Source of the DNA: Microbacterium sp. LKL04
Lineage (GTDB): Bacteria; Actinomycetota; Actinomycetes; Actinomycetales; Microbacteriaceae
Assembly: GCF_900102005.1 (NCBI RefSeq)
Contig: NZ_LT627736.1
Coordinates: 1,674,001 to 1,738,000 of the forward strand
Reading direction: 5' to 3'
DNA: 64,000 bases
Positions 703 through 11,189 of this stretch are shown here, in pieces (the first letter of the stretch is position 1; each line of letters begins with the position of its first letter). Made by a program: the position numbers and the translations under genes. The notes under the pieces were generated by a model. That model was given only the letters and a program-made list of their open reading frames with translations, made no database searches and was not told the origin of the DNA.

Positions 703-868
703 GGAGGTTCTCCATCTGTCGATTCAGCATTCCGACGCGCGATGTCGGGATGCCGGTGCGCAGGACGCGCAGACATACATCGCCATGTTATCCGCCCGTG
801 ACCTACGAGGTTGCTGGAGACGCCGGCATCCCCCGGCAGGTGACGGACCGTCGGCATCCGTCGGCCCG

Positions 869-874
869 TAAGAT
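869..874 (+). promoter_or_regulatory. -10 element for a leaderless transcript (coiled-coil protein gene)
   Basis: TAAGAT lies seven bases before the ATG at 882, so transcription should begin at or next to the start codon. No Shine-Dalgarno sequence is present, and the same layout recurs before many genes in the window. Confidence 0.5.
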
Positions 875-881
875 CGGGCGC

Positions 882-2210
882 ATGGCGGGTTTCTGGGGCA
901 GGCGCAAGCGCGAAGACGCGGAGATCGAGGCACAGGATGCCGAACTCAGTCGGAAGGCCGGGGCTGCCCTCGTCGCAGCCGACGAGCGCATCCGGGTGAC
1001 GGACGACGAGCTGGCGTACGCCGAGATCGAACTCGGGCGCGACGCTACCAAGGACCTGCGCGACGCGCTGGCGGCCGTCCGCCAGCACCTCGGCGAGGCG
1101 TTCCAGCTGCATCAGCTCAACCACGACGAGATCCCCGACACCCCCGAGGAGCTGCGCACGCGCAACGCCCGGATCGTGCAGCTGTGCGAATGGGCCGAGG
1201 ACCTGCTGGACGACCGTACCGAGACGCTGGCCGAATCCATCGCCCGTGCCCGCCGCGCTCCCGAGATCATCGCCGGCATCCGCAGCGACGTCGCTCGCAT
1301 GCGGGAGCGGCTCCCCGCGTTGAACGCGAGTCTCGAGCGCCTGTCGACGCGGTACTCGGATGCCGCGATGCGGACCGTGCTCGGGAACGCGGCCGAAGCC
1401 GCCCAGCTGCTCGATTTCGCCGAGCACAGTTCCGAGGTGTCGGAGCGCCGCCGCGACGCCGGCCAGCGCGAGCAGGCGAACCTCGCCCTCGAGACGGCGA
1501 TCGAGGCGTCCCGGCGCGCGGGCACCCTCGTCGAAGCGGTCGACACCTTCGAGATCGAAGCCCTCCGCGCCGAGTCCACCCTCGCGGCGATCGTCGACGA
1601 CTCGCGCGAGGACCTGATCGTCGCGCAGCCGCTCCGCGCGACCCCCGACGTCGCGGCCGCGGCCACGGAACTCGAGTCGGCGCTCGGCGCGCTCACCCCC
1701 GCGGGGAGCAAGCCCGACCCCTTCACCGAGCTCAACCGGCTCCGCACCGCGAACGCCGCCCTCGACGCGGCGGTCGCCAAGGCCCGTGCCCGCGCGGAGC
1801 GTCCCGTCCCGTCCGAGGCGCACGTCCGGCACGCGATCGACGACGCCGACCGCCAGATCGGCGTCGCCCGCAGCGTCATCTCGGGCCACCGCGGCTGGAT
1901 CGGCGCGGACGCCCGCACCCGCCTCGCCGAGGCCGAGCGCATTCGGAACGACCTCATGCGCTTCGCCGGGCCGATCCCCGAGGACGACCGCGAGGAGGCG
2001 ATGGGCCTCGCCCGTCGCGCCGGCCAGCTCGCCGCCGAGGCACTCGATCTCGCCCAGCGCGACATCGACTCGTCGCGCCCGAACGACTGGGGCAACGGAG
2101 GCGGCTACGGCGGCCGCGGCATGGGCGGGGGCATGGGCGGCGGAAGCCTGGCCGGCGGTCTGCTCGGCGGTCTCGTGATCGGCGGGCTCCTCGACGGCAT
2201 GTTCGACTGA
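882..2210 (+). CDS. Uncharacterised coiled-coil protein with glycine-rich tail
   Basis: I do not recognise a named family for this 442-residue protein. It begins MAGFWGRRKR and is then almost entirely charged, Ala/Glu/Arg-rich sequence expected to form long helices or coiled coils to about residue 395. The last 40 residues are Gly/Met-rich and end in a short hydrophobic GGLLGGLVIGGLL segment that could touch a membrane or promote assembly. There is no signal peptide. ATG 882 is preferred over in-frame upstream starts because a TANNNT element sits seven bases before it. Its stop overlaps the next start (ATGA at 2208-2212), so the two genes are probably co-translated. Function is unknown. Confidence 0.8.
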   Translation: MAGFWGRRKREDAEIEAQDAELSRKAGAALVAADERIRVTDDELAYAEIELGRDATKDLRDALAAVRQHLGEAFQLHQLNHDEIPDTPEELRTRNARIVQLCEWAEDLLDDRTETLAESIARARRAPEIIAGIRSDVARMRERLPALNASLERLSTRYSDAAMRTVLGNAAEAAQLLDFAEHSSEVSERRRDAGQREQANLALETAIEASRRAGTLVEAVDTFEIEALRAESTLAAIVDDSREDLIVAQPLRATPDVAAAATELESALGALTPAGSKPDPFTELNRLRTANAALDAAVAKARARAERPVPSEAHVRHAIDDADRQIGVARSVISGHRGWIGADARTRLAEAERIRNDLMRFAGPIPEDDREEAMGLARRAGQLAAEALDLAQRDIDSSRPNDWGNGGGYGGRGMGGGMGGGSLAGGLLGGLVIGGLLDGMFD

Positions 2211-8703: not shown

Positions 8704-8793
8704 AGAGCCGATGTCGTCCTTCGGGGTTGGCGGATGCCGGTGCTCCGCCACGGGTGAGTCCACAGTAACCGACAGGTGACCGCTCCCGCCCGG

Positions 8794-8835
8794 ACGACGC
8801 ACGGCCCCTCCCGCGAAGGAGGGGCCGTGCGTCGT
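8794..8835 (-). terminator. Terminator hairpin downstream of katG
   Basis: An 18-base stem (acgacgcacggcccctcc against its exact complement) closes a six-base loop. It lies 14 bases past the katG stop codon, between katG and mtrA. There is no clear T tract, which is common for terminators in this GC range. Confidence 0.8.
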
Positions 8836-8849
8836 GATGGCGGTGCCGG

Positions 8850-11189
8850 TCAGGCGTGCAGGTCGAACCGGTCGAGCTCGGTCACCTTCGTCCAGGCAGC
8901 CACGAAATCGCGGACGAACTTCTCGGCGGCGTCGTCCGAGGCGTAGACCTCGGCGATCGCCCGCAGCTCCGAGTTCGAACTGAACACGAGGTCGGCACGG
9001 GTGCCCACACCGATCTGCGAACCGTCGGAGGCGACGCCGCGGAAGGCGTGCGAGCCCGGGTCGAGGGGTGTCCACGTCGACCCGAGGTCGAGCAGGTTCA
9101 CGAACACGTCGTTCGTGAGCGCACCCGGCCGGCCGGTGAACACGCCGTGCGACGAGCCGTCCCAGTTCGCGCCGAGGGAGCGCAGGCCGCCCACGAGCAC
9201 CGTCATCTCGGGCGCGCTGAGGGTCAGCAGGTTCGCCTTGTCGATGAGGTGGTGCTCCGCCGGGAGGAACGCGTTCGGTCCGTAGTAGTTGCGGAAGCCG
9301 TCGGCGACCGGTTCGAGGTACCCGAACGACAGCTCGTCGGTCTGCTCCTGCGAGGCGTCGGTGCGGCCCGGGTGGAACGGCACGGAGACCTCGACACCGG
9401 CATCCTTCGCCGCCTTCTCGACGCCCGCGTTGCCCGCGAGCACGATGAGGTCGGCGAGCGAGACCGTGGTGCGTCCCTGCTGCTCGGCGTCGAAGGCGGC
9501 CTTCACGTCCTCGAGCGCGGCGAGGACCGTCTGCAGCTGCTCGGGGTTGTTGACCTCCCAGTCCTTCTGCGGCGCGAGGCGGATGCGGGCGCCGTTGACG
9601 CCGCCGCGCTTGTCGCTGCCGCGGAAGGTGGATGCCGCGGCCCAGGTCGTCGAGACCAGCTGCGACACCGTCAGGCCGGTGGCGAGGATGCGCTCCTTGA
9701 GCAGAGCGGCATCCGCGTCGTCGATCAGCTCGTGGTCGACGGCGGGCACCGGGTCCTGCCAGATGAGCTCCTCCTGCGGCACCTCGGGGCCGAGGTAGCG
9801 CGCGACGGGACCCATGTCGCGGTGCGTGAGCTTGAACCACGCGCGGGCGAACGCGTCGCCGAAGGCGACCGGGTCGTCCTTGAAGCGGCGCGACACGGCG
9901 TCGTAGGCCGGGTCCATCCGCAGCGCGAGGTCGCTCGTGAGCATGCGCGGCTCGCGGCGGCCGTCGGAGTGAGCGAGCGGGACCATGTCTGCACCGGCGC
10001 CGTTGGTGGGACGCCACTGGTGTCCGCCGCCGGGGCTGCGCATGAGCTCCCAGTCGTAGGCGTAGAGGATGTGGAAGAACTCGTTGTCCCACCGGGTCGG
10101 GTGGTAGGTCCACGTGACCTCGAGGCCCGAAGTGATCGTGTCGTCGCCCTTGCCGGTGCCGTGGCTGTTCTTCCAGCCGAGGCCCTGCTGCTCGAGACCG
10201 GCGGCCTCGGGGTTGTCGTCCACGTTCGTGTCGGGCGCCGCACCGTGCGTCTTGCCGAAGGTGTGACCACCGGCGATGAGGGCGACGGTCTCCTCGTCGT
10301 CCATGCCCATGCGGCCGAAGGTCTCGCGGATGTCGCGGGCCGACTTCAGCGGGTCGGGCTCGCCGTTGGGGCCCTCGGGGTTGACGTAGATGAGGCCCAT
10401 CTGGACCGCCGCGAGGGGCTTCTCGAGGTTGCGGTCGCCGCTGTAGCGCTCGTCGGCGAGCCACGTGGTCTCGGGGCCCCAGTACACGTCGTCGTCCGGC
10501 TCCCAGACGTCGGGGCGTCCGCCGCCGAAGCCGAAGGTCTCGAAGCCCATGGTCTCGAGCGCGACGTTGCCGGCGAGGATCATGAGGTCGCCCCACGAGA
10601 GCGCCTGGCCGTAGGTCTTCTTGACGGGCCAGAGGAGGCGCCGCGCCTTGTCGAGGTTGACGTTGTCGGGCCAGCTGTTCAGCGGCGCGAAACGCTGCTG
10701 GCCGGTGCCGCCGCCGCCGCGACCGTCGGTCGCGCGGTAGGTGCCGGCCGAGTGCCAGGCCATCCGGATCATGAGGGGGCCGTAGTTGCCGAAGTCGGCG
10801 GGCCACCAGTCCTGCGACGTGGTGAGGACGGCCGCGATGTCGGCCTTCACGGCGGCGAGGTCGAGGCTCTCGAAGGCGGCCTTGTAGTCGAAGTCCTCGC
10901 CGACGGGGTTGCCGACGGCCGGGTTCTTCTTGAGGATGCGGAGGTTCAGCTGGTTCGGCCACCACACCTGGTTGGCGGTGCCGACGGTGGGATGCGGCTG
11001 GCCGCCGTGGTTCGCGCGGTCGGCGCCGGGCGCCGCGTGGATGACGGGGCAGGCGTCGGCGGTGTTCTCCCGCGGCCGCGTCTCGCCGTCGCCGCGCTCG
11101 TCGACCGGGGTGTCGATGGGGGTGACGGCGTGGTCGACGTCGGTCGCCTCGGCGCCGATGGGCTCGGCCTGGGGGTCACGGTCGCTCAT
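8850..11189 (-). CDS. katG: Catalase-peroxidase KatG
   Basis: KatG is a heme enzyme that removes H2O2 by catalase and peroxidase reactions. The 779-residue length covers both the N-terminal catalytic and C-terminal degenerate halves. The distal-pocket segment [11 protein letters not shown] and the proximal heme-ligand segment [12 protein letters not shown] are present. All parts of the Met-Tyr-Trp crosslink can be found: Trp in QDWWPADFG, Tyr in [10 protein letters not shown] and Met in [10 protein letters not shown]. An unusual acidic extension of about 45 residues precedes the standard start of the fold; GGAAGG lies nine bases before the ATG. It is 44 bases downstream of furA on the same strand, the classic furA-katG operon. 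Confidence 0.97.

Follow-up and report, generated by a model that had tools for sequence, protein, structure and literature searches.

Why does the heptamer GGATGCC recur so densely, on both strands and both in and between genes, in a stretch of 64,000 nucleotides from the chromosome of Microbacterium sp. LKL04 (positions 1,674,001 to 1,738,000 of contig NZ_LT627736.1; hereafter the window, analyzed at full length)? A preliminary description of this DNA had pointed to a highly iterated word, and the counts bear this out on a larger scale than claimed. The window holds 86 copies (39 on the plus and 47 on the minus strand, about 1.3 per kb), a number that not one of 100 dinucleotide-preserving shuffles attained, their mean being 14.95. 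The whole genome, one contig of 2,922,023 bases termed G000 in the following (other G numbers denote genomes of relatives), contains 2477 + 2538 = 5,015 copies vs. 115 + 149 = 264 of the reversed word, which served as the genome-wide control for each word, with counts uncorrected for composition. The pattern is real, genome-wide and changes by dialect among related genera. Of the explanations considered, we favor a DNA uptake sequence, i.e., a self tag on incoming DNA, and give it about even odds.

The exact form of the word was studied in a pooled sample of 464 kb, consisting of the window and 20 evenly spaced 20-kb stretches of the genome, in which 756 copies of GGATGCC face expectations of 109, 101, 131, 176, 349, and 578 under Markov models of orders 0, 1, 2, 3, 4, and 5, respectively. 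The order-5 model, suggested earlier as a check, accounts for 578 of the 756 copies; this expectation is circular, as the 6-mers found in excess are themselves parts of GGATGCC, and an excess is still left after synonymous shuffling (see below). While the core GGATGCC had been recognized correctly, the dialects and an eighth base had been missed: position +8 is occupied by G in 83% of the copies, such that the full unit is GGATGCCG, a non-palindromic sequence present in 629 copies vs. 60 expected and ranking first among 7-mers and 8-mers by order-2 Markov z-score. Past position +8 the flanks are weakly biased (at most about 0.12 bits per position) and GGATGCCG is therefore not part of a longer repeat. 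Among octamers with a single mismatch, variants of the T at position 4 occur less often than expected (0.53-fold in G000 and 0.40-fold in G157), as do variants of position 5 (0.72 and 0.26, respectively), while end variants are mildly enriched. We think that the depletion at positions 4 and 5 is partly a bookkeeping consequence of synonymous choice.

The simplest explanation would be a bias in codon pairs, amino acids or base composition, or else a dispersed repeat element. Genes were called with a custom, simple codon-model finder that assigned 90% of the 464-kb sample as coding. Copies of GGATGCCG are located in genes (559, 1.34 per kb) and in intergenic DNA (66, 1.42 per kb), as had been stated before, with four further copies at edges. 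The largest genic class, G-GAT-GCC-G, corresponds to Asp-Ala and comprises 237 of the 559 genic copies, as a codon or amino acid bias would have it. Shuffling synonymous codons inside each gene, on the other hand, yields 97 copies instead of 559, and the class nCG-GCA-TCC, which requires the codons GCA and TCC, falls from 121 to 4, while the 66 intergenic copies compare to 5 expected from an order-2 Markov model. An excess is seen in each of the six classes of codon phase and strand, ranging from 2.6-fold to about 30-fold (one class having just 2 copies vs. 0.1), so that enrichment is not confined to one codon phase. Together with the weakly biased flanks and with word-free relatives, in which the word occurs at about 1-fold (G107, G125) or lower (G108), these results refute the explanation by bias or repeats, to which we assign next to no probability, and uphold the earlier statement that codon-pair bias does not suffice. 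The process that keeps the word abundant acts on DNA, not on protein.

The even split between strands that had been described is evident genome-wide from the counts given above and is repeated over the 20 stretches (336 vs. 334), the most uneven of which (9 vs. 18, p 0.12) is not significant, nor is any other; a strand-polar motif is thus excluded, as had been maintained. Chi and KOPS function with strand polarity, and in the absence of strand bias the word is therefore unlike Chi and KOPS, insofar as polarity is their defining feature. Neighboring copies at most 30 bp apart are arranged head-to-head in 24 of 36 cases. As 36 close pairs are about what chance predicts (35), it is their orientation and not their number that is special; in other dialects, numbers of close pairs are small and the favored order differs. 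Of the 27 places with head-to-head copies, most overlap called genes (19), five come after a gene in tandem arrangement and three, including a palindrome of the window (Table 1), are flanked by convergent genes. By codon use, the most typical fifth of the genes is the poorest in copies (1.15 per kb vs. 1.54-1.87 in the other fifths).

Copies are spaced at about one per 600-700 bases in G000 as well as in its relatives, 34 gaps exceed 1600 bp where random placement would give 54, and the ratio of variance to mean of counts in 4-kb segments amounts to 0.77 in those 103 of 116 segments with a GC content of at least 0.67. Enrichment over base composition declines from 8.7-fold at a GC content of 0.71-0.73 to 3.6-fold at 0.64-0.67 (11 segments) and 1.2-fold below 0.64 (2 segments). 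One stretch, G000:C1:2336001-2356000, has a GC content of 0.642, contains the word just six times, with two gaps of more than 7 kb, and is probably acquired DNA.

Distribution and dialects within the Microbacteriaceae

GGATGCC is present in 1,273 to 6,796 copies in all of the 35 genomes of the genus examined. Among 120 genomes from 85 genera of the family many are rich in GGATGCC, with up to 7,364 copies in G114, and some are at background, e.g., G108 with 229 copies vs. 245 of the control. The word is a trait of the genus and of the family. De novo word discovery in 60-80 kb each from 19 genomes revealed a clear word in eight of them (G000, G114, G085, G157, G091, G104, G144, and G166) and a weak word in G112, while the other ten were without a clear word of this kind. 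The dialect words are GGATGCCG (GGATGCC in G114), GGATGCGC, GGATCCGC, GGATCCTGC/GATCCTGC (plus GCTCCTGC in G144) and AGGAGGCG; they have GGA and mostly GGAT in common. When the 19 genomes were tabulated against 10 words (G000 being entered by 6 of its 22 stretches), word-bearing genomes were enriched mainly in their own word, in genic and intergenic DNA alike, and word-free genomes were near expectation for most words, with small excesses in G154 (GATCCTGC 14 vs. 3, GGATCCGC 22 vs. 11) and G071 (GATCCTGC 23 vs. 9).

Whole-genome counts follow the same lines. GGATGCGC reaches 2,715 copies in G150, 2,097 in G085 and 1,805 in G157 vs. 357 in G000; GATCCTGC occurs 2,135 times in G144 and 1,559 times in G104; AGGAGGCG is found 2,982 times in G166 and 1,488 times in G092, and its counts are also high in G102, G112, and G172, yet there the reversed controls are high as well. 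The words of genus-mates agree in genera g26, g33, g42, g50, and g57. A tree derived from TopA and LeuRS sequences, in which deeper nodes are weak, G033 is without data and G157, G074, and G116 are represented by partial sequence, joins G144 to G166 and G085 to G112, in both cases with full support, and the words of these neighbors differ by a small change in an alignment made by eye.

Several other octamers were noted along the way. Family f6 had appeared word-rich by raw count and was rejected as such, since 60 kb of its member G039 hold 18 copies of GGATGCC vs. 21.4 expected (order 2). In this genome from another family of the order, CGCCGTCG occurs 70 times vs. 12.2 (genic 63 vs. 25, intergenic 7 vs. 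0.8) and may be another iterated word or reflect codon bias. ACACCGAT of the small-genome relative G067 (genic 35 vs. 10, intergenic 4 vs. 0.3) is possibly a further word. Enriched octamers of G102 and G116 were rejected as dialect words: ATGCTGGT (intergenic 25 vs. 0.2, genic 0) and AGAGCTAC (intergenic 14 vs. 0.5, genic 2) are mainly intergenic and therefore probably pieces of dispersed repeats. In 20 kb of Herbiconiux daphne, AGAAGTCA (13 vs. 0.2 expected) is perhaps a local repeat that occurs alongside 23 copies of GGATGCC vs. 3.4.

Individual sites are less stable than the word itself. In 13 loci of related genomes that are 75-79% identical, GGATGCCG is kept at 31 of 111 aligned sites as compared to 15.5% of 7,836 anagram octamers, whereby one site may recur in several of the loci such that sites are non-independent, and 41 GGATGCCG sites are present in the relative alone. 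Word density is maintained while word positions change. Base-by-base conversion of sites between sister lineages (76-79% identical) was considered and rejected, as each comparison yielded at most one site with the partner's word. The partial conservation at aligned sites, the scarcity of long gaps, the balanced strands and the rarity of the word in low-GC DNA would all suit a signal internal to the chromosome, that is, a site for recombination, repair, segregation or a nucleoid protein that is needed densely along the chromosome. Such signals as Chi and KOPS are polar whereas the word is not, word-free relatives with genomes of 2.9-4.6 Mb manage without it, and replacement of the word between related genera would be unusual for an essential internal signal. 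We regard this explanation as fairly unlikely.

Candidate functions of the word

A role analogous to that of HIP words would imply that an orphan DNA methylase acts on the word, that the word arises or is retained through methylation-linked repair, and that methylase and word have been replaced jointly in other genera. The known methylase targets GGATG and GCATC are contained in both GGATGCCG and GGATGCGC. Furthermore, 34 of the 35 genus genomes encode a methylase of family PF01555 (N6/N4) that scores about 135-152 bits, and a PF01555 match of some kind was obtained for 118 of the 120 family genomes; the G000 gene is located at C1:2043165-2043995 on the minus strand (L246), and the conserved methylase is apparently an orphan. 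Matching methylases have been reported for alternate HIP words of cyanobacteria (PMC4390886). HIPs are palindromic, whereas the dialect words are not. Of 20 loci that were read, 19 feature close relatives of the PF01555 protein, 63-83% identical to that of G085, over five dialects and six word-free genomes; being alike across all of these, the protein is unlikely to set the dialect. G157 with its 1,805 copies of GGATGCGC lacks the conserved protein and has one just 31% identical in a 697-residue frame. G025, the genome of the genus without the conserved methylase, is rather low in GGATGCC (1,817 copies), a coincidence rejected as a trend because G031, the poorest in word of the genus, has the methylase. 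From these sequence comparisons, the conserved PF01555 methylase probably does not set the word. Methylases of the C5 and D12 types, sporadic in relatives (28 and 8 of 58 genomes searched, respectively), were not found in G000. A methylase as determinant of the word was rejected insofar as C5, D12, and PF01555 fail to track it, types I, III, and IIG being outside the search; the methylation target proposed before finds no support in the three families covered, and we deem the HIP-like explanation unlikely.

Alternatively, a defence system could read the word as a self mark and spare the DNA tagged with it. Among five Microbacterium phages, GGATGCCG is enriched in two (Efeko 13 vs. 1.8, Clayda5 13 vs. 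3.9), as if these mimicked such a mark, and the five phages pooled contain 40 copies vs. 18.8. Min1 (5 vs. 5.4), SanaSana (3 vs. 3.6), and Lynlen (6 vs. 3.6), on the other hand, are at or near chance, and a self mark appears very unlikely to us.

With regard to DNA uptake, G000 encodes ComEC and a ComEA-like protein with HHH_3 and SLBB domains that stays below the TIGR01259 cut-off (locus L191), a TadA ATPase exceeding the TIGR03819 cut-off (locus L171, near TopA) and, also near TopA, a TadB/C-like protein (PF00482), a short DUF4244 protein and a TadE-like protein of the Rv3654c family. The window itself contributes a ComF-like phosphoribosyltransferase (3887-4378) below the TIGR00201 cut-off. 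Transformation of Micrococcus luteus, likewise an actinobacterium, requires Flp pili, and its genome carries comEA and comEC homologs (PMC6370729). A Hi-C study of a mixed culture reported transformation of a Microbacterium by a spiked plasmid (PMC10257627). Within the family, the Tad ATPase model exceeds its cut-off in 81 of 120 genomes and reaches E 0.001 in 119, a level also attained by 13 of 14 control genomes. Competence genes as determinant of the word were rejected, ComEC and Tad ATPase being present irrespective of it, and the same applies to Tad pilins as presence/absence markers, as pilin-like frames occur in 18 of 20 loci, including word-free ones; loci without visible frames are those of word-bearing G157 and word-free G071.

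We infer, rather than observe, because no receptor was identified and competence genes are found in word-free relatives as well, that a protein reads the word, that the word acts during DNA uptake, and that its abundance is maintained by biased uptake and not by selection for some role inside the cell. According to the model that we propose, the machinery for natural transformation would recognize GGATGCCG on incoming DNA as a self tag, presumably by way of a pilus of the Tad/Flp type, or else of a DNA receptor at the surface, that feeds ComEA and ComEC. Tagged DNA would be taken up and recombined preferentially, tagged alleles would therefore be copied back more often, and molecular drive could spread the tag to any place that tolerates it, be it genic or intergenic, on both strands. 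A slight shift in receptor preference could then lead to genome-wide replacement of the word and hence to genus dialects.

A number of observations weigh against uptake as the function. ComEC is encoded in 118 of 120 family genomes, word-bearing or word-free; the Tad ATPase cut-off is passed by word-free G081, G102, G107, and G125 and missed by word-bearing G104 and G144; the pilin-like frames beside TopA, identified by eye, are there with or without the word; and no receptor was found whose pattern tracks the dialects, Tad pilins being the candidates. The plasmid reportedly taken up by a Microbacterium was foreign (PMC10257627). GGATGCCG is merely as dense between genes as within them, and the variance/mean ratio over all 116 4-kb segments is Poisson-like (1.05), higher than in the GC-rich ones because low-GC segments are poor in the word. 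Some genomes are rich in two words, as exemplified by G174 with 2,924 copies of GGATGCC and 2,288 of GGATGCGC; its genus-mate G105 in g70 disagrees with 682 copies of GGATGCGC; lineages that share a word are not always sisters in the weakly supported TopA and LeuRS tree; and sites do not correspond in sister lineages that have different words. Finally, the enrichment in two of five phages counts here, since uptake drive alone does not predict it.

We put forward tentatively, as a serious possibility that falls somewhat short of even chances, that the Microbacteriaceae have independently evolved sequence-specific DNA uptake, with at least five genus-isolating dialects and a receptor in the Tad/Flp-ComEA pathway, and would thus join Neisseriaceae and Pasteurellaceae as the third such lineage and as the first one not belonging to the Proteobacteria. 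Among the matches listed from the open PubMed Central literature, no title or abstract dealt with GGATGCCG or with uptake words in Actinobacteria. If a large actinobacterial family has a system of dialect words, word turnover could be studied there in natural replicates, a protein that reads the word would be expected in an envelope lacking an outer membrane, the genera able to exchange genes could be predicted, and a way of tagging DNA for the transformation of actinobacteria would suggest itself. Should the word serve a purpose other than uptake, it would still be a tractable puzzle, being unexplained, genome-wide and switched between genera.

Features of the window

The features located in the window are compiled in Table 1. 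The MtrA protein encoded in the window has its best named relatives in Microbacterium, with identities of up to 89%, in keeping with the assignment to this genus. In the first 10 kb, 17 copies (8 and 9 by strand) had been counted by eye; the count is 18, with 8 on the plus strand as stated and 10 on the minus strand, and the coordinates given as examples were correct to within three bases. The palindrome lies between two convergent called genes, with the word pair 26 bp from either gene end, and is terminator-like by position. The longest word-free stretch would fit acquired DNA. The block from 28001 to 46000 is mostly of lower GC content and word-poor, carries glycosyltransferase and ABC-transporter genes as well as a gene for an SH3-domain protein, and is perhaps a variable cell-surface cluster.

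Table 1. Word copies and related features, in window coordinates.
Feature	Position	Strand	Remark
GGATGCC copy	748..754	+	exact match
GGATGCC copy	825..831	-	exact match
GGATGCC copy	853..859	-	exact match
GGATGCC copy	935..941	+	exact match
GGATGCC copy	1275..1281	-	exact match
GGATGCC copy	1358..1364	+	exact match
GGATGCC copy	2302..2308	-	exact match
Perfect 38-bp palindrome	3057..3094		centre is a head-to-head GGATGCC pair, 3067-3073 (+) and 3078-3084 (-)
GGATGCC copy	4557..4563	-	exact match
GGATGCC copy	5502..5508	+	exact match
GGATGCC copy	6157..6163	-	exact match
GGATGCC copy	7776..7782	-	exact match
GGATGCC copy	8481..8487	+	exact match
GGATGCC copy	8732..8738	+	exact match
GGATGCC copy	9399..9405	-	exact match
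GGATGCC copy	9630..9636	+	exact match
GGATGCC copy	9708..9714	-	exact match
Longest word-free stretch of the window	28300..33981		overlaps low-GC part with glycosyltransferase gene

Comparison with known systems

Chi and KOPS share with the word described here that they belong to the class of over-represented octamers, and their strand polarity is absent here. The cyanobacterial HIP1 and alternate HIPs are similarly abundant and have been replaced by another word in some relatives (PMC4390886), and in these two respects the likening of the word to HIP1 in the preliminary description was apt; it does not extend further, as HIPs are palindromes tied to matching methylases whereas the word is non-palindromic and has no match in the methylase families searched. 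Micrococcus luteus is transformed by way of Flp/Tad pili, ComEA and ComEC, gene classes that are also present in G000, and no uptake word is mentioned in the excerpts of the respective review (PMC6370729).

Published uptake sequences are abundant, form inverted pairs and occur in family dialects (PMC3630211, PMC12616744, PMC1939737). The uptake signal sequences of the Pasteurellaceae resemble the word in having an exact core and in being both genic and intergenic (PMC1939737, PMC12616744); they differ by their AT-rich downstream segments (PMC12616744), while the word is without a strongly conserved base past position +8. The DNA uptake sequences of the Neisseriaceae, for which the minor pilin ComP is the receptor, likewise consist of thousands of short exact copies with inverted pairs and with family dialects that share a core (PMC3630211). 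Compared to these, word, phylum and envelope type are different here, copies are mostly located in genes, dialects are non-monophyletic in a weak tree, and no receptor was identified. As far as anatomy and dialects allow a judgment, the word is closer to the uptake sequences of these two families than to HIP1 or Chi, and among the functions proposed at the outset an uptake signal appears to fit best.

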